This document shows positions 4,201-52,499 of a stretch of 64,000 nucleotides of DNA, one piece after another. The first letter of the stretch is position 1; each line of letters begins with the position of its first letter. The notes under the pieces are model-generated. The model saw only the letters and a program-made list of their open reading frames with translations. It did not search any database and was not told the DNA's origin. Source of the DNA: Prevotella sp. (GTDB lineage Bacteria > Bacteroidota > Bacteroidia > Bacteroidales > Bacteroidaceae); the NCBI GenBank assembly GCA_017623155.1, contig JAGAPR010000051.1, positions 1-64,000 on the forward strand, in the 5' to 3' direction. A program made the translations under genes and the position numbers.

Positions 4201-4276
4201 AAGAATTTGCTGCCGCGGTGGCTTTGTATATCTGTTTTTAGATTACAAAATAATGTCACTGCGGCAGCAAATTCTT
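4201..4276. terminator. Bidirectional hairpin terminator
   Basis: A 20-bp stem pairs 4201-4220 with 4257-4276, containing one G-T wobble, around a 36-nt loop. It sits between the stop codons of two convergent genes (2901 + and 4283 -). Adjacent GAAGAATGAAGA-type repeats extend the pairing. Confidence 0.7.
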
Positions 4277-4282
4277 CATTCT

Positions 4283-4708
4283 TCACTCTTCATTCTTCAT
4301 TTTATAAGCCAGCGCATACATTCTCATCTGCTTCACCATGGCCAGCAATCCGTTGCTGCGCGTGGGGCTCAGATGCTCTTTCAAGCCGATACGGTCGATG
4401 AAATACAGGTCGGCATCGAGTATTTCGGCCGGCGTGTGACCGCTGAGAACACGGATGAGCAACGCCACTATGCCCTTGACAATGAGTGCGTCGCTCTCTG
4501 CCGTGAAGTCTATCACACCGTCATGATAGTCGGCTTGCAGCCACACACGGCTCTGACAGCCGTCAATCAGGTTGTTTTCCGTCTTGTACTTGTCGTCCAA
4601 CGGTGCCTGTTCGTTGCCCAAATCGATGAGCAACTGATACTTGTCCATCCAATCGGTGAAGTCTGAAAACTCCTCGATTATCTCGTCTTGAAGTTCGTTT
4701 ATTGTCAT
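4283..4708 (-). CDS. sufE: SufE family cysteine-desulfurase partner
   Basis: A 141-residue cytosolic SufE-type protein that accepts sulfur from a SufS-like cysteine desulfurase for Fe-S cluster assembly. The persulfide-forming Cys51 lies in the family motif LIDGCQSRVW, followed by the expected DGVIDFTAESDALIVKG and GLKEHLSPTRSNGL segments. Length is normal. It stands alone, with no suf operon nearby. Its last codons (KMKNEE-stop) coincide with a GAAGAATGAAGAG repeat that continues downstream. Confidence 0.9.
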   Translation of the reverse strand: MTINELQDEIIEEFSDFTDWMDKYQLLIDLGNEQAPLDDKYKTENNLIDGCQSRVWLQADYHDGVIDFTAESDALIVKGIVALLIRVLSGHTPAEILDADLYFIDRIGLKEHLSPTRSNGLLAMVKQMRMYALAYKMKNEE

Positions 4709-11996: not shown

Positions 11997-12318
11997 TTAT
12001 TTTGAGGAAAAAGCATATTTCGTTGCACATTATATGGGTATTTGTGCATTATTTTAACGCTTTAAACCATAAAATGAGCTCAAAATAATGAATTATACGT
12101 TTCTGCACTTCTCCTTCACCTTGATGTAGTAGCGATGGGGCTGATACAATGATGGGGCTTTCCTTAATATTTATTAATCTCATTAACAATTCTGATATTA
12201 TATTTACAAAATAAGGCCTCATAATTGCGTTCTTTTCAAAAAATAATTTCCTCGGCGAAAAAAACGCATTTTCAGAGCATTTTACGTAAAATGTTGTCTG
12301 TCAACCTTTTACCTACAA
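11997..12318. other. Non-coding spacer upstream of repeat copy 2
   Basis: AT-rich and without a convincing reading frame. A perfect 16-bp palindrome (CATTTTAC/GTAAAATG) lies at 12278-12293. Nothing else stands out before the long repeat begins at about 12319. Confidence 0.5.
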
Positions 12319-12608
12319 AACCTACCGTCCCTACGCCCCCTACACACCCTCCTCATTTCCAATTAGGCCGTAATTGCATTCCAATTAGGCCGTAATTGGA
12401 ACGCAATAAGGCCGTAAATGCAATGCAATTACGGCCTTATTGCAGGGCAAAAACACCCGAAAATCATGCTCAACCCCGAATAATTGCATCTCAACCCCGA
12501 AATAATGACACGAAAATGTCAATTTAAATTCTCGCCTTTTTCTAAACGGTGACTTCAAGTCGCGCTTTTTGCGTTTAACAATTGCCTCGCGCTTTTTACA
12601 TTTTTTAA
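12319..12608. repeat. Long intergenic repeat, copy 2
   Basis: Direct-orientation copy of 1-290, offset by exactly 12,318 bases, with a few substitutions and no indel over the first 275 bases. The two copies flank the block from the reductase gene to acpP. Confidence 0.9.
12359..12446. repeat. Four-unit 22-bp GGCC array A'
   Basis: The same four units as array A, with GGCC centres at 12367.5, 12389.5, 12411.5 and 12434.5. All four units are intact. Confidence 0.9.
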
Positions 12609-12618
12609 ATGTAAAGGT

Positions 12619-12658
12619 CGCAAAGGTCGCAAAACTTTGCGTCTTTGCGACCTTTGCG
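12619..12658. repeat. 15-bp perfect inverted repeat
   Basis: CGCAAAGGTCGCAAA (12619-12633) pairs with 12644-12658 around a 10-nt loop. It lies immediately after repeat copy 2, in the leader side of the following gene. A -7-like TACATTTG box for that gene is at 12798-12805. Confidence 0.7.
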
Positions 12659-20288: not shown

Positions 20289-22130
20289 TTATCTTCTTCC
20301 CAAGTCGTCGTATATGCTCTGCATGATGGCTTTGCCGATGTTTGTGCGTCTGTCGGCGGCCTTGTCGCTGTCGGAAGAGTTTTCCTTTATCCTGTTGCCG
20401 ATGATGTCGTAGACGGTGTATCCAGTGCTGTCGGCAAAGCCGAAACCCTCCTTGAAAGTGAAGAAAGCAAACGGATAGCGGTATTCCCTGCTCAGAATAT
20501 CGCGGCTGAAAGTATATTCGGAGTGGTCTATGGCCATCTGTCCGAGCAGTGTGGCGGCCATGTCGCTTTGGTTCATGAGCGTGTCTACGGTCTTATGACT
20601 TTTCACCGCGCCGCCAATCCACAGCATGGTGTTGTGATGGTGCTGCTCGTGCGATATGCCGGCGGGGTAGGCGAAACCGTGGTCGGGGATGCAGATGATG
20701 AGCAGATTGTCCCAAAGCGGGGTCTTGCGGATGCGCTCCACAAACCGTCCGAGACACTCGTCGGTGTATGCGAATGCGTTGGCCACGGGGTTGTCGAGCC
20801 GTTTGTACGGCACCTCAAACGGCTCGTGGCTGCTGAGTGTGAGGAAGCCCACATGCCACGGGCTGTGCTTTTGCGTGCCGATGACGGTGAACAGGCTGTC
20901 GAATGTCACGTCGTCGTTGGCTCCCCACGGGTTGTCTTTCTTCTTCGAGGCCGGAAAATCGACATCGCTTATTATCGTTCCGTAGCCTCCCGTGCGCAGA
21001 TAGCTCTGCATGTTGGTGAAGTTTATGTCGCCGCCGTAAAGGAACGTGCTCCTGTATCCCGCAGCGTTAAGGCTGTTTGCCACGCAGGGAAGCGTGCGGC
21101 TCTTTATCGGCAGTTTCATGACCGATAGCGTGGGGAATGCCGGATGGCCGCTCAGGGCAGACACCATGCCGCGGTCTGTGCGGAAACTGTTGGAGTAGCA
21201 GTGTGTGAATATCACGCCTTCAGCGGCGAGCCGGTTGTAGTTTGGAGTGATGTCGGGGTTTCCGCCCACGGCTTCCACTATCCGGCCGCCGAAACTTTCC
21301 ATCAGTATCAGCAGCACGTTGGGGCGCCGGGTGTTGAGCAGTGTCACGGTGTCGGTGGGTGTGGGCGGATAGAGCCCCGTGAAAATATCGGCCCGCACAT
21401 GTTCGTCGAAATAGTCGAACTCGTCGGCATAGTTCTCGGCCTTGCCCAGAGAGTAGAGCATGCTGAACATCGGATTGACGGCAGAATGGTTGAGATACTC
21501 GTCTTCACTGAAATAAACCTTGCCTATGTTGGCGGTCGACTCGCCCAGTCCGCCGCGTATCGAGATGCCGAGAGGGAGCATTGTTATGATGAGAGCGGCC
21601 GTGACGGCACTCTTGCGACGCACGGAGATACCGGCCGCCGTCGGTATATAGCGCGGCGTCGCGGCACGAAGAGCGATGAAAATGGCGGCCGTATAGGCTG
21701 CGACGGCGGCCGCCCTGATTATGAGATACCACGCCGACACGCTGGCGAAAGCGTCTTTCGGCGAGTCGATATAATAGAATATGGTGGCGTCGAGCTTGAA
21801 TTTCCAGAACGGATACAATGACGTGTCGGCTGTGAAGGCAAGCGACATGAGCACGGCCACGGGCATATAGTACCACGATGCGACGCGCCGGAGCGGCAAT
21901 CGCGCCGGTATCCACACGGAAGCCATGACAAACAGCAGCGGCAGAGCGATGAGATAGCCCGTCACGGGGATGTCGAGCAGCAGTCCGTGAGCCATCACCG
22001 CGAGCGTGTCGGCCATTCCGTACGATGAGTTTTCGGCACGGTCGAGCCATAGAAACATCGGTTTTTGAATGACGAACAGTGCGAGTATCGTCGCATATAG
22101 CTTTATAATGTATGTCAATCTTGTCTTCAT
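20289..22130 (-). CDS. Second LTA synthase-type sulfatase, membrane
   Basis: A 613-residue relative of the preceding convergent gene but clearly diverged. It has about five N-terminal membrane helices (to about residue 195) and a periplasmic catalytic domain. Motifs: NVLLILMESFGG (Glu278), FRTDRGMVSALSG with a canonical Thr318 nucleophile, LSSHEPFEVP, and CIPDHGFAYP. The expected chemistry is phosphoglycerol or phosphoethanolamine transfer. A TAATTTTG box at 22143-22136 (minus strand) lies very close to the start codon, implying a very short or absent leader if it is the -7 element. Confidence 0.85.
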   Translation of the reverse strand: MKTRLTYIIKLYATILALFVIQKPMFLWLDRAENSSYGMADTLAVMAHGLLLDIPVTGYLIALPLLFVMASVWIPARLPLRRVASWYYMPVAVLMSLAFTADTSLYPFWKFKLDATIFYYIDSPKDAFASVSAWYLIIRAAAVAAYTAAIFIALRAATPRYIPTAAGISVRRKSAVTAALIITMLPLGISIRGGLGESTANIGKVYFSEDEYLNHSAVNPMFSMLYSLGKAENYADEFDYFDEHVRADIFTGLYPPTPTDTVTLLNTRRPNVLLILMESFGGRIVEAVGGNPDITPNYNRLAAEGVIFTHCYSNSFRTDRGMVSALSGHPAFPTLSVMKLPIKSRTLPCVANSLNAAGYRSTFLYGGDINFTNMQSYLRTGGYGTIISDVDFPASKKKDNPWGANDDVTFDSLFTVIGTQKHSPWHVGFLTLSSHEPFEVPYKRLDNPVANAFAYTDECLGRFVERIRKTPLWDNLLIICIPDHGFAYPAGISHEQHHHNTMLWIGGAVKSHKTVDTLMNQSDMAATLLGQMAIDHSEYTFSRDILSREYRYPFAFFTFKEGFGFADSTGYTVYDIIGNRIKENSSDSDKAADRRTNIGKAIMQSIYDDLGRR

Positions 22131-22182
22131 GTGTGCAAAATTAAGAAGTTTTCGGGTATAAACGGTATAAAGAAAGGCAAAA

Positions 22183-22214
22183 TTTGGAGTATTGGCGGAA
22201 AAGGATTACTTTTG
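22183..22214 (+). promoter_or_regulatory. Promoter of the WaaE-like glycosyltransferase
   Basis: TTTG at 22183-22186, a 20-bp spacer, then TACTTTTG at 22207-22214, 26 bases before the start codon. Confidence 0.8.
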
Positions 22215-22240
22215 CAAATACACCATATTACATATAGATA

Positions 22241-23023
22241 ATGGAAGACAAACACGGCAGACGGATTTCGGTTGTGATAAATACCTACAATGCTTCGGCG
22301 CACTTGCAGCGGGTGATAGAGTCGGTAAAAGACTTCGACGAGATACTTGTCTGCGACATGGAGAGCACCGACGATACGGTGGATATTGCCCGCCGCAGCG
22401 GTTGCAGGGTGGTGACATTCGCCAAAAACGGTTGCGACATAGTGGAGCCGGCACGCCAGTTCGCGATAGACAGTGCCTCGTACGACCACGTTTTGGTGGT
22501 GGATGCCGACGAACTCGTGCCCGCCGCGCTGCGAAAATATCTCTACGCCGCGCTGGCCGCCGACTCGTGTCCCGACGGGATAGCCGTTCCGCGCCGCAAT
22601 TATTTCATGGGGCGCTTCATGCACAGCGCATATCCCGACTACGTATTGCGCTTTTTCGACCGCCGGGTGACCGTTTGGCCGCCCGTGATACACACCTCGC
22701 CGCAGGTAGACGGCACAGTGGAGCGCATACCGGCGGCGCGCCGCGACCTCGCGTTCGAGCATCTCGCAAACGACTCCGTGGGCACAATTATACGTAAAGC
22801 CGATACCTATTCGACCCACGAACTGCCCCGCCGACGGCATAAGAACTACGGATGTTGTGCCATCATCTACCGTCCCGCGTTCCGATTCTTCAAGTCTTAC
22901 GTCCTGAAAAAGGGCTTTCTCGACGGCATGCCCGGCCTTATCCACGCGTGTCTCGATGCGATATATCAGTTTGTCATAGTGGCGAAACTGACAGAAGAGA
23001 AAGGGAAAGAGAATTCTAAATGA
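22241..23023 (+). CDS. Glycosyltransferase family 2, WaaE/KdtX-like
   Basis: A 260-residue GT-A enzyme. The start ISVVINTYNASAHLQRVIESV and the acidic pairs VCDMESTDDT and VVDADELVP (the metal-binding DxD equivalent) are those of the WaaE/KdtX group, which adds a sugar to the lipopolysaccharide inner core in Proteobacteria. The C-terminus is basic and aromatic (FFKSYVLKKGFLDGMPGL), fitting membrane association. It has its own promoter (22183-22214) and is monocistronic, convergent with the gene at 23061. The precise sugar is unknown. Confidence 0.87.
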   Translation: MEDKHGRRISVVINTYNASAHLQRVIESVKDFDEILVCDMESTDDTVDIARRSGCRVVTFAKNGCDIVEPARQFAIDSASYDHVLVVDADELVPAALRKYLYAALAADSCPDGIAVPRRNYFMGRFMHSAYPDYVLRFFDRRVTVWPPVIHTSPQVDGTVERIPAARRDLAFEHLANDSVGTIIRKADTYSTHELPRRRHKNYGCCAIIYRPAFRFFKSYVLKKGFLDGMPGLIHACLDAIYQFVIVAKLTEEKGKENSK

Positions 23024-23044
23024 TACATTTTCGAAATGTGACGC

Positions 23045-23132
23045 GGCCGTTGTAACGTCATTACAAGGCCGTTGTAACATCATTACAAGGCCGTTGTAAC
23101 ATCATTACAAGACCGTTGTACACCGCAATCTT
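23045..23132. repeat. 22-bp GGCC array B
   Basis: Units of 22 bp run 23045-23066, 23067-23088 and 23089-23110, and a fourth starts as GACC at 23111 and decays after about 10 bases. Each unit is GGCC-GTTGTAAC followed by CATTACAA, so neighbouring units form TTACAA-GGCC-TTGTAA palindromes. GGCC centres are exactly 22 bp apart. The array overlaps the last codons of the minus-strand gene at 23061. Confidence 0.92.
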
Positions 23133-23987
23133 ATACGTCAGCTTGTGGATGAATGAGTTTCGCGCTGCTTCCGCAAGCCTTTCGGGCGATAAAGGCACAT
23201 TGTTTTTCGCCCATTCCTGTATTGTGTGCATGGCCTTGTCGTCCATGTGCGGCATTGACTCATATTCTTTTCTTGCCCGTTCGTCCACTGTTATCATTGC
23301 CTTGAACATCAGATGATGCTGAAAATAGTGCAGCAGTCGGCACTCTTCGCGCCATAATGCGGTCATCAGTTGTGCCCATCGTGTGATGAGATAATTGCCT
23401 TTTGCGGCGTGTATGAAGCAGTTTTGTATCAGCGTATAGGCAAATTCGCCCTGCGAATGATACATGAAAAAGGGTTGTTCCGATATTTCTTCGGGGAAAG
23501 AACCTGTCATGAGGCATGTCGCGTCTATCCAGTATCCGCCGTAAGCGGCAAGCAGATATACGCGGATAATGTCGGCAAAGTGTGCGTTGCCTATCGTTCC
23601 CTGCCGCCGTTGGGTCACGATGAAGTCGGGTAGTGTGATGTATTGCGCGTGGTTTTCTTCGGTGATGATGAATATCTGTTGGTTTTCTGTCTTGTGTTTT
23701 TCCACCGAGTGCACGCATCTTTTCACCAGTTCGGGCATCTGCCGCTCGCCTTGCAGCCAGCACATCCACAGCGGTTCCGAGCCGGCGGGCAATGTCCGGG
23801 CGGGCGTTATGGCAAAATCACGGCCGGCATAGCGCGCCGCATAACGCTTCGCGAAATACGAAACGCATCTTTTGTCGTTCAAAGGATTGAGCATGTACCG
23901 CACCTTGTGACGCCATTTCCTTACCGGCACGAGTGCGGAAACAACCGTGCAGCACAGCTTTTGAATGCCCGTCAGCGATTTGTTCAT
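23061..23987 (-). CDS. Capsular polysaccharide synthesis-type glycosyltransferase (GT32-like)
   Basis: A 308-residue cytosolic enzyme of the capsular polysaccharide synthesis family. Diagnostic pieces are EPLWMCWLQGERQMPELVKRCV and HFADIIRVYLLAAYGGYWIDATCLM, where the AYGGYWID segment provides the DxD-like metal site seen in GT32 enzymes. It is the last gene of a minus-strand run beginning with the LpxL-like gene. Its final residues (CNDVTTAL-stop) are encoded by the GGCC array B, so the natural C-terminus appears to have been replaced by repeat sequence. Confidence 0.82.
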   Translation of the reverse strand: MNKSLTGIQKLCCTVVSALVPVRKWRHKVRYMLNPLNDKRCVSYFAKRYAARYAGRDFAITPARTLPAGSEPLWMCWLQGERQMPELVKRCVHSVEKHKTENQQIFIITEENHAQYITLPDFIVTQRRQGTIGNAHFADIIRVYLLAAYGGYWIDATCLMTGSFPEEISEQPFFMYHSQGEFAYTLIQNCFIHAAKGNYLITRWAQLMTALWREECRLLHYFQHHLMFKAMITVDERARKEYESMPHMDDKAMHTIQEWAKNNVPLSPERLAEAARNSFIHKLTYKIAVYNGLVMMLQRPCNDVTTAL

Positions 23988-26895: not shown

Positions 26896-27918
26896 ATGGG
26901 TAAAGATACTACGACGCAACTTAAAGGAATTGCGATATTGCTGATGTTGTGGCTCCACCTGTTCAGTAACGAGGAGCAGACATTGGCTTGCATCAACACG
27001 ATATGGTTTTGGAACGGTATGCCGTTGGCCGTCGTTCTTAAAAAGATATGCTCCATTTGCGTGCAGATGTATATCTTCTTGGGCGGTTACGGACTGGCCA
27101 AGACATACGAGCGAGCCGCCGTCACAGGCGGGAATATGGGCAATGCGAAGCGGGTGTGGCGGCTTTATGTGAACTATTGGGTGGTGTTTCTGCTCTTTTA
27201 TCCGTTGGGAATGATTTTCAATCCTGCACTGTTCCGCACCGACATCGCGGATTTTCTTTTGAATTTCAGCAGTTTGAAATATTCGATAAACGGCGCGTGG
27301 TGGTTCCTTCTGCCATACGCCATGCTCACGTTGCTGTCAGGAGCGATGATAAAGCGGTTATACTTGTCGGGAAAAGCGTTCTCTGCCGTCACGCTTCTCG
27401 CCACATTGTTGCTGTATGTCTCGGCATATCTGCTGCTCGACATTGTCGGGAGCGGCGACGATTTGCCGCGGCTTTGCGCCCGTGCCGGGTTGCGGTTTTT
27501 CACTCTTCTCTTCGTTTTTGTCGTGGGAATACTGTTTGCCAAGCACGGGATATTCGAGCGGTTGAAAGCCCGGGCGTATGCCGATGCGAAGAGCTCTACC
27601 GTCAACACCGTGATATCGGTGTTGGCACTGTTGCTTGTCTTGCTGAAATTATCCATCGGCTCGTCGAGTCTTCTAAACCCGTGGTTTGTCTTCATTCTCA
27701 TTCCCTGTTATGCCGTTTGCCGGCATCCGGCGTGTGTAGAGAGTGTATTGGGCTTTTTCGGACGGCACAGCACGAATATGTGGCTCACGCATTACTTTTT
27801 CTGTCACTATATCTTCGGCGACATGATATACACTTTACGTTACCCGCTTCTGATATATTTCGTGCTCTGCCTGTTGTCGTTGGCGGCTTCGTATGTAATT
27901 ATAAAGGTAAAAAGGTAA
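26896..27918 (+). CDS. Membrane acyltransferase, family 3
   Basis: A 340-residue polytopic protein with about ten membrane segments. The opening TTQLKGIAILLMLWLHLF is typical of acyltransferase 3 (OafA/WecH-like) proteins, though the expected catalytic His-Arg arrangement is only loosely matched. It likely O-acetylates a surface sugar. I use the ATG at 26896, after the -7 box TATATTTG at 26863-26870. The final codons (IKVKR-stop) run into an AAGGTAAAAA tandem repeat. Confidence 0.75.
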   Translation: MGKDTTTQLKGIAILLMLWLHLFSNEEQTLACINTIWFWNGMPLAVVLKKICSICVQMYIFLGGYGLAKTYERAAVTGGNMGNAKRVWRLYVNYWVVFLLFYPLGMIFNPALFRTDIADFLLNFSSLKYSINGAWWFLLPYAMLTLLSGAMIKRLYLSGKAFSAVTLLATLLLYVSAYLLLDIVGSGDDLPRLCARAGLRFFTLLFVFVVGILFAKHGIFERLKARAYADAKSSTVNTVISVLALLLVLLKLSIGSSSLLNPWFVFILIPCYAVCRHPACVESVLGFFGRHSTNMWLTHYFFCHYIFGDMIYTLRYPLLIYFVLCLLSLAASYVIIKVKR

Positions 27919-28047
27919 AAAGGTAAAAAGGTAAAAAGGTAAAAAGGTAAAAAAGTAAAAAGGTAAAAAAGTAAAAAGGTAAAAAACGTGCGGCGTGACT
28001 CTAAGCGCAGCCTTTTTACCTTTTTACTTTTTTACCTTTTTACTTTT
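27904..28047. terminator. Tandem AAGGTAAAAA tract forming a 35-bp perfect hairpin
   Basis: A roughly 10-bp tandem unit fills 27904-27986. The segment 27951-27985 is perfectly complementary to 28013-28047, with a 27-nt loop. It sits between convergent genes and contains the stop codon of the plus-strand one and abuts the stop of the minus-strand one, so it probably ends both transcripts. U-runs lie on both strands. The tandem tract should be prone to copy-number change. Confidence 0.75.
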
Positions 28048-28048
28048 A

Positions 28049-29929
28049 TTACACGTTCTGCATGTCGTTGAGCTTTTTATAATATCCGTCGAGGGCTATC
28101 AGCTCGTCGTGCGTGCCGCGCTCCACGATGCGTCCTTCGTGCAGCACGCATATCTCGTCGGCCTGCCTGATGGTAGACAGTCGGTGGGCGATGGCCACCG
28201 TCGTGCGTGTCTTCATGAGTCGTTCGAGTGCGTCTTGCACGAGTCTTTCGCTTTCGGTGTCGAGTGCCGATGTCGCTTCGTCGAGGATAAGTATCGGCGG
28301 ATTTTTGAGAATGGCGCGTGCGATGCTCACCCGTTGGCGCTGTCCGCCGGAGAGCCGGCCTCCGCGTTCGCCGATGTTTGTGTCAAACTTGTTTTCCGAT
28401 TCCATGATGAAGTCGTAGGCATTGGCTATCTTCGCCGCCTCCTCTATCTGTTCCAGCGTGGCGTTTTCCACTCCGAAGCTGATGTTGTTGCGGAAAGTGT
28501 CGTTGAAGAGTATCGCCTCCTGATTTACGTTGCCCATCAACCGGCGCAAATCCTGTATGCCGAGGTCTTTCACGTTGATGCCGTCGATGAGCACTTCACC
28601 CTCCTGCACGTCGTAATATCGCGGTATCAGGTCTACGAGTGTCGACTTTCCGCTGCCGCTCTGGCCCACGAGAGCCACCGTTTTCCCTTTTTCTATCGTC
28701 AGGTTTATGTCTCGCAGCACCCATCGGATGTTGTCATTCTGCGGTGATTGCGTGTCTTTTTCCTTTGCGTCGGTGTCGGCGTTGTATGCAAACGACACGT
28801 TCCGGAACTCTATCTTGCCTGTAAACTCCCTGATATGCTTCGGACTTTCCGGCTCTTTGATGTGGTTTTCGGCTTTCAGAATTCTGTTTACTCGCTCCAT
28901 GGAAGCCAGTCCTTTCGGTATGTTATATCCCGCTTTGGAAAACTCTTTGAGCGGATTGATGATGCTGTAAAGTATCACGAGATAGTATATGAACACCGGT
29001 CCGGACAGTGTCGAGTTGTTGAGCACGAGTATTCCGCCGAACCATAGTACGATGACAATCATCACCGTGCCGAGAAATTCGCTCATGGGGTGTGCCATTT
29101 GCTGCCTTATGTTCACCCACATGATAGTGTTTCGGTGTTCGTTGTTGACATTGTTGAAGCGCGTGTTCATCTTTTCTTCGGCGCAGAATGCCTTTATTAT
29201 GCGCAGTCCGCCGAGTGTTTCCTCCACCTGACTCATCGCGTCGCTCCATAGTGCCTGCGCTTTCAGCGAGCGGGCTTTCAGTTTTCGGCCCACGGCCCCC
29301 ATCACCCAGCCCATTGCCGGCACTATTGCGAGGGTGAAAAGAGTAAGCTCCCAACTGATGAAAAGGAGCATCGAGAAATACGCTATGATGAGTATCGGGT
29401 TCTTGAAAAGCATGTCGAGCGATGACATTATGGAGTTTTCAATTTCTCCCACGTCGCCCGTTATCCGCGCGATTATGTCTCCTTTGCGCTCTTCGGTGAA
29501 GAATCCGAGTGGCAGCGATGTGATTTTTTTGTACAGTTGGTTACGGATGTCGCGCACGATACCTGTGCGGATTGGTATTATCGAGGCCGAGCTGAAGAAG
29601 TAGGCGGCCGTCTTCGCGAATGTCATTAATGCGAGAAGCAGTCCTATCACGAGCAGTGTTGTCGTCGCTCCCACGCTGTCTATCAGTTGGGTCACGTAGT
29701 AGTTGGCGTTGTTCATGGCCGCCTCTTTCATGTTTTCCCAGCCCATAGGCATCAGTTCCGTCACCCTTTTGTTGTCTTCCGTCTTGAAAAGGATGTTCAG
29801 TATCGGTATGAGTGCCATGAACGAGAATATGTTCAGCACGGCCGAGAGGATGTTGAACACTATCGAAGCAAACAGATATTTCTTGTATGGCGGCACAAAC
29901 CGGCGCATCACCTGTATAAATTCTTTCAT
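28049..29929 (-). CDS. MsbA-like ABC exporter (fused permease and ATPase)
   Basis: A 626-residue half-transporter that works as a homodimer. Residues 1-340 are the six-helix transmembrane domain. The nucleotide-binding domain has Walker A GQSGSGKST (422-430), signature LSGGQRQRVSIARA, Walker B ILILDEATSALD and the switch His in AIAHRLSTI. Closest in type to MsbA/LmrA-family lipid flippases. Given the adjoining lipid A and glycan genes, export of a lipid-linked glycan or lipid A is a reasonable guess. A linker (DTDAKEKDTQSPQNDN) between the first strand of the ATPase and Walker A is longer than usual. Confidence 0.87.
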   Translation of the reverse strand: MKEFIQVMRRFVPPYKKYLFASIVFNILSAVLNIFSFMALIPILNILFKTEDNKRVTELMPMGWENMKEAAMNNANYYVTQLIDSVGATTTLLVIGLLLALMTFAKTAAYFFSSASIIPIRTGIVRDIRNQLYKKITSLPLGFFTEERKGDIIARITGDVGEIENSIMSSLDMLFKNPILIIAYFSMLLFISWELTLFTLAIVPAMGWVMGAVGRKLKARSLKAQALWSDAMSQVEETLGGLRIIKAFCAEEKMNTRFNNVNNEHRNTIMWVNIRQQMAHPMSEFLGTVMIVIVLWFGGILVLNNSTLSGPVFIYYLVILYSIINPLKEFSKAGYNIPKGLASMERVNRILKAENHIKEPESPKHIREFTGKIEFRNVSFAYNADTDAKEKDTQSPQNDNIRWVLRDINLTIEKGKTVALVGQSGSGKSTLVDLIPRYYDVQEGEVLIDGINVKDLGIQDLRRLMGNVNQEAILFNDTFRNNISFGVENATLEQIEEAAKIANAYDFIMESENKFDTNIGERGGRLSGGQRQRVSIARAILKNPPILILDEATSALDTESERLVQDALERLMKTRTTVAIAHRLSTIRQADEICVLHEGRIVERGTHDELIALDGYYKKLNDMQNV

Positions 29930-31375: not shown

Positions 31376-31410
31376 TATCTTATAATATATTTTGTATGCA
31401 AAGGTAAGAA

Positions 31411-31446
31411 TAAGAATGAAGAATGAAGAATGAAGAATGAAGAATT
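31411..31446. repeat. AGAATGAAGAATGA short tandem repeat
   Basis: About four copies of a 7-bp GAATGAA unit upstream of miaB. The same motif, in the other orientation, lies at 4272-4300. The rest of the 31376-31793 spacer holds GGCC array C and a -7 box, TACTTTTG at 31732-31739, for the DUF3737 gene. No gene is visible there. Confidence 0.6.
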
Positions 31447-31507
31447 TTCGATTGTCAGCGGCCGCGGCGGGTTGCAAAAAGGTCGCAGACGAAGTTTTTT
31501 TTGAAAT

Positions 31508-31594
31508 GTTACTCGGTCGACGTAACATCGTTACTCGGCCTACATAACAATGTTACGCGGCCCAAATCACAATGTTACTTCGGCCGCGTAACGA
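31508..31594. repeat. Four-unit 22-bp GGCC array C
   Basis: Units run 31508-31529, 31530-31551, 31552-31573 and 31574-31594. Each begins GTTAC, has GGCC (GGTC in the first) eight or nine bases in, and ends in a GTAAC or ATAAC-like element. GGCC centres are at 31516.5, 31538.5, 31560.5 and 31583.5. The flanking sequence differs from arrays A and D, but the unit length and count are the same. Confidence 0.88.
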
Positions 31595-49251: not shown

Positions 49252-51810
49252 TTATTGTTTGAGTTTCCCGAAAAAGAAAACGGAGTTGTTGTCAATATTA
49301 AGTGAACGTGTGCCCAAGTTACGGGCGATGGCATAGAATTTCGTAAAACTGTCGGTTGCGTAAAACGCCAAATCCTCATTTGTTATAATGTCGCCGTCGT
49401 TTGTCAATGTAAGGATTGCCACCGAACCGTCGGCGATACATCCTTTCGGTAAGAAGCAAGCACGGGGATTGTATGTCAGATTTGGGAGCAGAACACAATT
49501 TGCCTGATTAAGATATTTGGCGACATCCAGATTTTCTATATCGTCTATATAACAGTCATAATCGGGAATATTGATAATCTCATTGTTGCCGATGTTTCGG
49601 GATTTCAGGACTCTTATTTTCCCGTTGTGCTTTGTTATGGCCTTGGTAATAACTCTGTCACGATATGCTTTAAACACATTAAATTCCATTTTGTCGGCAA
49701 CTTTGTCAAACGTTTCGTTGCGATAGATAATCCAATAAGGGAATTTGTTGTCTGTCAAGTATGTTTGCCGGTGACAGATAACTTCATTGGTGATATAAGA
49801 TTCCACAATTGTGTTTTGCGGTTTCTTGCGAGTATCGAGTATGAAACAAATTGTTTCTATCTTTACTCCTTTAAATCCTTTTTCCCCGAAATCGATTATG
49901 CGAGAAATGTTTTTCTCTTTCATAAGTGCACGTGTCGCATCAAATTCAGGAGCGTTTATCAGGCTTTTGGGAACAATCAGTGATACCACATTCCCTATTT
50001 TCATTGCTTTTTCGATGAAGAAAGAGAATATGTTGTTGGTGTTCTTGTTGAAAACGTCGGCCTTATACTTTGCCAACAGTTGCTTTTCTTTTGTGAGTTT
50101 TTTGTAGGGAGGGTTGCCTACCACTATATCATACTTCTTGTTGAAGTCGTATAATAAGAAATCTGCGTTTATGTAACTAATATGGATGTTGGCGGGAATA
50201 TCAATCTTTGCTACCAGTTCTTTTAAGGTCTCAATGCTGTTTGCATCAATGTCAACCACATCGATATTCACATCTTGCACGCTTGCGTACTTCAATATAA
50301 GTGCAGGAAGGAAGTTGCCGACTCCGATGGATGGCTCCAAGATATTCAGCTCGGTAAAGTTTTTCGCATCGGGAAGACTCTTTACGATTGTATAACAAAC
50401 ATCCTGTCTCGTGTAATATGCGGCGTTGTTTTCTCTTTGGGCGTTTGCCAACTCGGCTATTTTGGATAACTCGGCAAAACCGGAATGATTATTCTTGCGG
50501 ATATAATCAGTAAGGCAAGTGTGTGTTGTCAGTCTTTTCTTGTCGATCAATGCTTTTATTTCTTGTTCGGATAGGAACGGTCTGCATAGCAACTTGCGGA
50601 TTTTAGATGCAATTTGTCTGAAAATGACGGTAGGAACAGCCTCGCCAAGATTTTGGCGAATGTTCATTTCCTCTTTCTTTAAGAACAGTTCTTTCTCTTT
50701 CAATGGCATCTTGTTCAAATCATCAAAGGAGATATCGCTCCATTTGAATGATGGAGGTACCGACATCATGAGCATGATTTCTCTGATGCTGAACACTCGG
50801 TTGTCGACAGGGTGAACTGTATTCTGACTTGCCATAATGTCATTGCGAGTGTGAATGCACGGTGCCACCTTGTCCCAATATTGTCGGGTATACTTGTCGC
50901 CGTTCTTGCGGGCATTGTAGACGATAACTCCATCTTTGATGCTATGAGGAATTTTGTTGGCGTCTGTATTATCAAAAGCGGATTGTCCTTCTTTGATATC
51001 CGCAATCCAAGATTCCATGCGTGGCGAGTATTTCCGGAAACTATGATATATGTCGTCTTCCGAAATATCTCCCATCTTTTTTAATGATGGTAAATGGCCG
51101 ATAACCTGTCTCAGTGTCCTTTCGGGGTGTTTGTCGGGAAATATGTCGTATGGTGTAATCTCTTTCAAATCTTTTCGTACACCGATGACCAATGTCCTTG
51201 TCCTGCTTGACGGGTTGCCGTAATCCTTAAAATTCACTACTTTGTATAGTATATTGTACGAGCCGGCCAAATCGTATTCTATCGCTTCTCTTATGGATTT
51301 GTCTTGCCCGTCGATGTCGGTACATACTGATGTGAGGAAAGCCCGAACATTCTCGAATACAAAAAACTTCGGTTTGATCAGCCGTGTCATCTTGATAGAC
51401 TCTATGACCAGCGAATTACGTTTTAACTCGTCTTTCTTTTTATGGTTGGCAACAGACATTCCCTGACATGGAGGTGTCGCTATCAGCACGTCCAAATCTG
51501 TCAGGTTGAAAGTCTTTTTCCACATTTCCAACTCAGCAAAGACTTTGTCTTTTGTTTCTTGTGCAGTCATGTCGCCACATATATAACCGCTGTTATACGC
51601 ACATTTTAGGTTGAACTTTTGTATTTTCAATCTGCGTTCCAGCAGTTCGACAGTGGCAACACAGTGAAAATTCTCTTCCTTAAATCCGTAGCATCCCACG
51701 CCTGCGCTGCTGAAAAGGCTGATGTATGTTTTCAGTCCATACGCAGAATTCCGATCTGCCAATAGCATTTCGGGTGTATCAAGTTCCGTGTACAACTTCT
51801 TTTTTGTCAT
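49252..51810 (-). CDS. Bifunctional DNA methyltransferase: C5-cytosine plus N6-adenine domains
   Basis: An 852-residue single chain with two methyltransferases. Residues about 25-408 are a C5-cytosine enzyme: FSSAGVG SAM motif (33-39), catalytic PPCQ with Cys115, FENV (152-155), SSRTR (201-205) and the closing GEAVPTVIFRQIASKI. Residues about 455-852 are an N6-adenine enzyme of Eco57I style: YYTRQDV, LEPSIGVGNF (491-500) and NPPY (566-569). No frameshift separates them. A natural reading is an asymmetric target with cytosine methylated on one strand and adenine on the other, as in Alw26I, Eco31I and Esp3I systems. The nuclease is the next gene. AT-rich, suggesting transfer. A minus-strand TATTTTTG box lies at 51893-51886. 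Confidence 0.9.
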   Translation of the reverse strand: MTKKKLYTELDTPEMLLADRNSAYGLKTYISLFSSAGVGCYGFKEENFHCVATVELLERRLKIQKFNLKCAYNSGYICGDMTAQETKDKVFAELEMWKKTFNLTDLDVLIATPPCQGMSVANHKKKDELKRNSLVIESIKMTRLIKPKFFVFENVRAFLTSVCTDIDGQDKSIREAIEYDLAGSYNILYKVVNFKDYGNPSSRTRTLVIGVRKDLKEITPYDIFPDKHPERTLRQVIGHLPSLKKMGDISEDDIYHSFRKYSPRMESWIADIKEGQSAFDNTDANKIPHSIKDGVIVYNARKNGDKYTRQYWDKVAPCIHTRNDIMASQNTVHPVDNRVFSIREIMLMMSVPPSFKWSDISFDDLNKMPLKEKELFLKKEEMNIRQNLGEAVPTVIFRQIASKIRKLLCRPFLSEQEIKALIDKKRLTTHTCLTDYIRKNNHSGFAELSKIAELANAQRENNAAYYTRQDVCYTIVKSLPDAKNFTELNILEPSIGVGNFLPALILKYASVQDVNIDVVDIDANSIETLKELVAKIDIPANIHISYINADFLLYDFNKKYDIVVGNPPYKKLTKEKQLLAKYKADVFNKNTNNIFSFFIEKAMKIGNVVSLIVPKSLINAPEFDATRALMKEKNISRIIDFGEKGFKGVKIETICFILDTRKKPQNTIVESYITNEVICHRQTYLTDNKFPYWIIYRNETFDKVADKMEFNVFKAYRDRVITKAITKHNGKIRVLKSRNIGNNEIINIPDYDCYIDDIENLDVAKYLNQANCVLLPNLTYNPRACFLPKGCIADGSVAILTLTNDGDIITNEDLAFYATDSFTKFYAIARNLGTRSLNIDNNSVFFFGKLKQ

Positions 51811-51893: not shown

Positions 51894-52189
51894 CTCAAAA
51901 ATCCCGTAATAACAGGTCTTTCGTGACAAAAAAAGACGGATTTTGGGTTCACCCCGATATTTGGAGTGACATATATGTCTGTTTGCCCGTAGGGATGCGC
52001 GAGCCGTGGTGTTAACATATTGATTTTGTGTTTAACTTAAAATATGCAAACAGAAAGTAAAAACTCGTGACAAAAGATTTTTGTGAAGTAGGTTTTGTTA
52101 ACTTAAAATATTTAACCAAAAAGGCGGTTGTTTAATATTTGTAAACAATTACATGCCGGCTTTTTCTCCTTTTCGTACATTTTTGCCTT
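51894..52189. other. AT-rich non-coding spacer
   Basis: This holds two GTTAACTTAAAATAT-like segments (near 52031 and 52097) that may be degenerate repeats. I see no gene or clear promoter pair. It marks the left end of a 1.2-kb gap between the second restriction system and the SusC/D locus. Confidence 0.5.
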
Positions 52190-52277
52190 GCAATAAGGCC
52201 GTAATTGCATTGCATTTACGGCCTAACGGGAGTGCAATTAGGCCGTAATTGGAATGTAATTACGGCCTAATTGGAAA
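52190..52277. repeat. Four-unit 22-bp GGCC array D
   Basis: Units run 52190-52211, 52212-52233, 52234-52255 and 52256-52277. Sequence is related to array A but orientation alternates, so GGCC centres fall at 52198.5, 52221.5, 52242.5 and 52265.5. Each unit holds the TTA-GGCC-GTAA core or its reverse. Confidence 0.9.
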
Positions 52278-52499
52278 ACAAGACGGTTTTTGAGGTGCTC
52301 AAAAACGGCGTAAATTCCTGTAATGCTCTTATATACAGTTGTTTGCGTAAAGTGCTTCATAATTCGCGTATTTGCGCCAAAAAAGATTTTCTTGGAAAAG
52401 AATCGATTCTCAGCGATGTTAACATAAAATATCACGACAGTTTATTTGTGTATTTTTAACTAAAAACGGATAATGTGTTAAAATCACAATCGCTTTATT

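Follow-up and report, generated by a model that had tools for sequence, protein, structure and literature searches.

The five 22-bp arrays of the window (the whole 64,000-nucleotide stretch analysed here) are probably the minisatellite cores of modular, non-autonomous repeats dispersed in the Prevotella group, and putatively act as a DNA-level platform of dyad sites. The modular part of this reading is very likely. The platform part, which calls for a putative binding protein, is a tentative proposal that we hold with less confidence. In its full form such a repeat would run from a head of about 135 bp with an inverted repeat, through about four 22-bp dyad units, to a tail, and headless forms would occur as well. 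The arrays are dispersed and mostly intergenic, share descent in register, and gain and lose whole units between sister species. A common head occurs across species with species-specific arrays, and in the genome that holds the window (G000) the arrays are far more alike than the heads.

The first-pass annotation had reported the five arrays, and all of them exist. The GGCC spacing was confirmed, and TRF, which is independent of the GGCC pattern, gives a period of 22 at each; the bounds given here improve on the earlier ones. Two kinds of array are present. The A kind (A1, A2 and the variant E) is built of units such as CCAATTAGGCCGTAATTG, and in A the fourth of these is inverted. A1 (39-127, + strand, unit orientation +++-) is the four-unit core of an A element from which the contig end has removed the head, as the window starts at base 1 of contig C21. 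The tail of this element (128-291, +) carries a conserved AACGGTGACTTCAAGTC at 227-243. Array A2 (12357-12445, +) also has four 22-bp units and is identical to A1. It is preceded by an inverted-repeat head of a type found across the genus (12182-12319, +; 73.4 bits and E 7e-21 with head model R1, of which this head, as L013, is one of the 30 training sequences) and followed by a tail (12446-12609, +) with the motif at 12545-12561. A1 and A2 belong to two 95%-identical copies (1-291 and 12319-12609) of a 291-bp repeat and thus are not independent. Array E (52188-52276, - strand, unit orientation +-+-) is a variant of the A array, 81% to A1. A possible decayed head lies at the expected place and strand (52319-52419, -; 12.2 bits, E 0.09, not significant), and the flank scores 30 against the A head side, with a shuffle maximum of 24. 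Array E looks like a decayed relative of the A element. On its head-distal side, an ORF at 49252-51810 carries two methylase domains, first one of the C-5 cytosine kind and then one of Eco57I/N6 type.

In the C/D kind, GGCC is flanked by arms of GTTAC or TTACAA. Array C (23035-23123, unstranded) consists of four TTACAA-type units, the fourth with GACC. It extends into two ORFs of the - strand, at the 3′ end of one of capsule-synthesis type (23061-23987) and at the 5′ end of the following one as listed (22127-23083). Array D (31506-31594, unstranded) has four GTTAC-type units, the first with GGTC, and sits between an ORF with MiaB-type domains (radical SAM, UPF0004, TRAM) and a DUF3737 ORF. Neither C nor D has a detectable head. 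The GGCC starts are spaced 22/22/23 in A1 and A2 and 23/21/23 in E; array C has three GGCC 22 apart, and in array D the GGTC unit is followed by GGCC steps of 22/23. GGCC is shifted by one base where a unit is inverted, and the 22-bp unit itself holds. The five arrays are neither one single element nor unrelated. Other repeats in the window include facing tracts of an 8-bp repeat (AAAGGTAA / CCTTTTTA) at 27903-28052, which form long inverted repeats; on other contigs, several A elements (L028, L031, L033) have similar tracts immediately beyond their ends. TRF also reports the heptamer repeats AATTCAT, ATTCTTC and AAGAATG at 362-386, 4271-4301 and 31406-31445.

Across G000 (2.74 Mb, 104 contigs, 84% complete) the pattern GGCCN17-19GGCCN17-19GGCC has 261 matches, against 7 for the pattern read backwards, which bears out the expectation of a genome-wide GGCC phase. 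A four-unit array gives two pattern matches, so these correspond to about 125-130 arrays, or roughly one per 20 kb. Among 27 places listed, two (L113:2350 and L123:2308) are unlike these arrays, and both are inside ORFs. We extracted 44 arrays, five from the window and 39 from 40 fetched loci; about half of the extracted loci were picked as A-element or C-type copies. The filter of three GGCC hides shorter or more decayed arrays, and L139 was lost this way. Four GGCC units are present in 38 of the 44, three with a decayed fourth in five (C, D, L118, L128, L144), and five in one (L137). Most arrays (41/44) are clear of ORFs of 130 aa or longer, two overlap in part, and array C alone overlaps an ORF by 0.73. 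Pfam families were found in 16 of 20 neighbouring ORFs scanned (60 listed), and we did not find a transposase or a common function among the 20. Terminators were rejected as an identity: where genes could be called to the left and right (41 arrays, by greedy ORF calls of which some may be spurious), five arrays are in convergent and 12 in divergent settings, and no T tracts were seen at the arrays.

Such scatter could point to a host chromosome-organising platform, i.e., dispersed sites of a nucleoid or segregation protein whose spacing is selected while the sequence drifts with the protein, as has been proposed for constant-size bacterial satellites (PMC8161180). The array density (from 261 overlapping matches in 2.74 Mb), the 41 arrays clear of ORFs of that length, the fixed phase, and the several array families with an equal step in one genome would all suit it. 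The distribution is patchy, however, with the GTTAC pattern in 7/398 genomes and the head not found at E<=0.01 in 72/120; orthologous loci vary in unit number, and the protein is only hypothetical. We regard this platform as rather unlikely.

The A element is about 430 bp, in the order head, array, tail. Its tail motif has 46 matches in G000 and none in the control, and the array is readable in 41 of these copies (19 exact, most others one to a few bases off). Over 38 copies the mean pairwise identity of the array is 0.976. The left (head) side is less alike, at 0.669 in its near part and 0.748 in its far part, as is the right (tail) side, at 0.819 and 0.913, where the 0.913 part holds the motif used for selection. 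An array so much more alike than its adjacent sequence needs exchange between arrays, or selection. A recent burst of the whole element would leave array and flanks equally alike, unlike what is seen. The likeness of the arrays could also reflect conversion without any function. At L116, L120, L122 and L131 the head side only was matched (scores 45-57 against shuffle maxima of 23-29), whereas at L117, L123 (at a contig end) and L127, also of A type, the flank comparison matched neither side, and no head was detected. RNAalifold on the 38 elements pairs the array mainly with itself. A whole-genus DNA search found the element in 2/398 genomes, its own and a 34-bp piece in G093; only two candidates were scored per genome, which makes the absence elsewhere weak. 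With 40 A copies scored, eight G000 contigs begin and eight end within 60 bases of an A array, and the contigs concerned are C3, C8, C21, C23, C26, C39, C62, C77, C85, C90, C95 and C102. The A element thus probably breaks the genome assembly.

We did not find terminal inverted repeats in the A element, where direct and inverted comparisons of the hand-set consensus ends both gave p 0.13. That no terminal inverted repeats or partner enzyme were found, and that neither a target duplication nor an empty site came to light, speaks against the element reading. An origin in phages or plasmids was also tried and rejected: window positions 12240-12620 have no blastn match in the phage and plasmid collections, and the exact core and the tail motif are absent from viral_contigs. 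Short palindromic intergenic repeats in many copies also recall REP/REPIN-type repeats, which are moved by a RAYT (Y1) transposase. Such an origin is very improbable, as Y1_Tnp was not found in G000 (four candidates, none with E<=0.001, in a genome 84% complete), unlike 25 of the other 35 genomes searched, in which it is present.

A head related to that of the A element is found well beyond G000. A 19-kb G152 query searched in G322 met a dispersed repeat of about 400 bp (G322-type) at at least 36 places besides the orthologous stretch, with 69-84% identity (40 candidates scored). When 18 copies are aligned, their ends are conserved and enclose an array that keeps the 22-bp step but differs in sequence. 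In contrast to G000, conservation per column is lower in this array (0.72-0.76) than in the head (0.88-0.92). A profile of the A left side matches the G322-type repeat (best E 1.5e-6; 7/18 copies with E<0.001), and the first 11 rows, to E 0.05, fall on the same strand and in the matching place. The A tail profile found nothing in the G322-type copies (best E 0.34). Terminal inverted repeats were not found in the G322-type element either, with p 0.11 for hand-set consensus ends. Direct repeats of about 30 bp are present at both ends of the G322-type element, with a score reached by 0/1000 shuffles (L356 10217-10658, L362 1499-1907).

The head model, built from sequence only with 30 G000-type and G322-type heads as its training set, matches 48/120 genomes of the genus (Prevotella s.l.) at E<=0.01. 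At least 25-27 matches each were found in G000, G012, G016, G029, G083 and G099 (27 candidates scored). Among 81 sequences it was strong for window A2 and for L187, one of the best 80 named MiaB loci, which carries a G322-type element; the neighbourhood of array E gave the E 0.09 already mentioned. We fetched 40 head regions and looked behind the heads. The lag-22 autocorrelation there has z 4.1 in G016 (10 copies), 3.3 in G012 (10) and 2.9 in G099 (7), against 0.2, -0.6 and 1.0 in the head regions of the same genomes. In G016 lag 22 is also present in the stretch after the array (z 2.2). G029 gave an ambiguous z of 1.3, G083 has no 22-bp step behind the head (z -0.3), and one copy in G142 has a 22-bp array behind the head by eye. 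GGCC had been taken as the core of every unit, and this does not carry over: the arrays behind the heads in G012, G016 and G099 are by eye not GGCC-centred, and the array units of these head-bearing species have no mutual resemblance by eye.

The two arms of a head pair better with each other than with arms from other species (-15.9 vs -13.6 kcal/mol; n 53, Wilcoxon p 8e-5), in the same direction in 8/9 species. The set comprised 39 of the 40 fetched regions (L452, from G001, was left out), seven G000 heads and seven G322/G152-type heads. Values for the opposite strand are -13.8 for own and -11.7 for cross-species arms (p 0.004). Within a species, pairing with the arms of another copy is about as good as own pairing, so the signal lies between species, and as copies within a species are related the p-value is optimistic. 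G322 heads pair no better than cross-species heads, and RNAalifold on the alignment of 53 heads found no structure on either strand.

The C/D-type arrays allow descent to be followed. For four D-type arrays the in-register score is the highest in all six pairs (0.73-0.82), compared with 0.54-0.75 when rotated by whole units and 0.66-0.77 for the reverse complement. They therefore look like copies of one 88-bp module and not like the product of independent slippage. The 300-bp flanks of ten C/D arrays have a sole match, of 31 bp. The seven genomes among 398 with GTTACNNGGCCNNNGTAAC are G152 (89), G000 (54), G322 (13), G176 (7) and three genomes with 1-2. Array loci are common to G152 and G322, and to G152 and G176, with flanks mostly 90-98% identical, and we found no shared array locus between G322 and G176. 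Two G152 stretches (L356, L355) searched in G322 gave broken matches near arrays and no clean empty site. The four-unit count seen in G000 does not hold everywhere. By a strict unit rule, over the places listed, the mode is four in G322 (10/12 arrays) and G176 (4/5) and five in G152 (16/31). Eight of ten aligned orthologue pairs were used (L315/L329 and L319/L347 were dropped for poor alignment, and L307/L349 was left out since a contig ends there). Seven of the eight differ by whole units (for example 4 vs 5, 7 vs 5 or 4 vs 3), and in the remaining pair the numbers agree. The 22-bp phase persists through the gain or loss of units, as the first-pass annotation would lead one to expect. Four G152 GTTAC arrays (L325, L334, L344, L352) share short flanks of their own (35-43 bp, 95-100%), so that they may be part of a second modular element.

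Substitutions between orthologues number 21/290 in the arms, 35/258 in the centre, 15/64 in the spacer and 189/2279 in the flank, and are mostly transitions (56 ts, 15 tv). At 7.2%, change in the arms is close to that in the partly coding flanks (8.3%), so the arms are conserved only relative to centre and spacer. The lower rate in arms than in centres and the in-register scores of the D-type copies agree with the earlier view that the arrays are more than simple slippage. Inverted end units (+ first, - last) are present in 19/42 arrays of at least four units in three species, by our own orientation rule. Covariation was not detected across the centre of 203 GTTAC-type units, where Watson-Crick pairs are at or below expectation (positions 6/12, 57 observed vs 100.3 expected; 5/13, 93 vs 106.7; 8/10, 115 vs 128.8). 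For the GTTAC family this favours reading as double-stranded DNA over reading as a folded strand. This bears on a transcribed RNA hairpin array, a sponge or attenuator in which every unit would form an RNA hairpin recognised at its loop. For the A units, stems of 6-7 bp around a 5-nt GGCCG loop can be drawn, and the inverted repeat of the head pairs somewhat more strongly on the + strand (-15.9 vs -13.8). The lack of excess Watson-Crick pairs in the 203 units, the presence of both unit orientations within one array, the lack of any match in the window at the Rfam gathering threshold and a single tRNA in 20 loci make such an RNA quite unlikely.

Periodic repeats of other kinds are found in relatives. 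A scan of named MiaB loci covered the best 80 of 465 (best 85% identity), in Prevotella, Prevotellaceae, Xylanibacter or Marseilla. Among 137 TRF rows in these regions (568 kb), the most frequent periods are 7 (24 rows), 22 (16), 21 (12), and 14 and 18 (11 each). In two relatives, about three dyad 22-bp units appear by eye to fall within the same coding region (L202 6634-6686, L231 6617-6681), and three 22-bp units keep the reading frame. In a set of 28 units drawn from G000 and relatives, a dyad reached by at most 2% of shuffles is present in 10 and absent at that level in 18, and G006, G007, G015 and G018 have 22-23-bp satellites without a dyad. Dyad-less satellites of this step are what neutral evolution might leave, with slippage and recombination building the arrays, template switching the dyads, and the copying machinery setting the 22 bp; the whole-unit length change between sister species and the excess of transitions (56 to 15) are in keeping with it. 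It accounts poorly for D-type copies in identical register, for an array identity of 0.976 against 0.67-0.91 in the flanks, for the inverted end units in 19/42 arrays, and for arms conserved over centres. We consider neutral satellites unlikely.

We return to modular dispersed repeats with a dyad platform. The first-pass annotation had proposed either a binding platform or a mobile or recombination element rich in hairpins, and the results support this in part. The repeats would have spread by one route or another, and concerted evolution, through exchange or conversion of units between copies, would maintain the likeness of the arrays in each species. A dimeric protein may read the array as double-stranded DNA, with one dyad every two helical turns, so that the dyad sites would lie in series on one helix face. 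The protein could be part of the spreading machinery of the element or of the host. Several findings run contrary to this reading: C, D, L117, L123 and L127 are headless, heads in G083 are without arrays, array arms change nearly as fast as flanks, and in G322 the arrays are less alike than the heads and own arms are not better paired. A variant with a fast co-evolving satellite-protein pair is also unlikely, about as much so as neutral satellites. In it, a structured head would be genus-wide while the array is replaced and homogenised in each species, and a sequence-specific oligomeric protein and the 22-bp dyad sites would chase each other, like eukaryotic centromere satellites. A common head with different arrays supplies comparable copies over many species, in which one can ask what is selected, what is converted and what is bound. 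The head also offers a means of recognising and naming such repeats, which seem to interrupt assemblies.

The first-pass annotation knew of no named element with such a design, and at least three published systems are comparable as they are described. What seems new is one head over many species with a different array in each, and we found no paper on this combination in the open-access literature. Satellites of constant length and variable sequence have been called enigmatic by their own describers (PMC8161180). These satellites of Subirana and Messeguer have a constant 20-23-nt step, a species-specific sequence, several families of the same length per genome and a mostly non-coding location, all of which recur here. 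The A and C/D arrays in G000 and other units in relatives have such a constant size. The satellites are described as tandem repeats alone, whereas some of the arrays here follow a structured head that they have in common. BOX elements of Streptococcus pneumoniae and S. suis consist of boxA, a variable tandem boxB and boxC, with predicted stem-loops (PMC3049150). They are likewise composite and scattered through the chromosome, but belong to Streptococcus and have other module sequences and sizes, as compared by description only. Seven of eight GTTAC-type pairs differ in unit number, but these arrays are headless, and the A element is nearly fixed at four units.

The other of the closest known designs, beside BOX, is the BrickBuilt MITE of Porphyromonas gingivalis, which has a leader, a tandem minisatellite without spacers and a tail, is intergenic, and differs between strains by entire repeat units (PMC4596501). 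As there, the repeats described here are in Bacteroidales and intergenic (41/44 arrays), combine a leader, an array and a tail, gain and lose whole units, and have no internal transposase remnant. A leader, an array of about 22-23 nt step and a tail are found in the A element (exact-core copies), in the G322-type element and in the arrays behind the G016, G012 and G099 heads. The BrickBuilt unit is 23 nt, compared with 22 here, and strain ATCC 33277 has 19 copies, compared with 46 copies of the tail motif in G000. The ends of BrickBuilt are inverted repeats resembling those of IS5-family elements, whereas no terminal inverted repeats were found here (A, p 0.13; G322-type, p 0.11). Unlike BrickBuilt, as far as its description allows the comparison, the head here crosses species and the array is species-specific.
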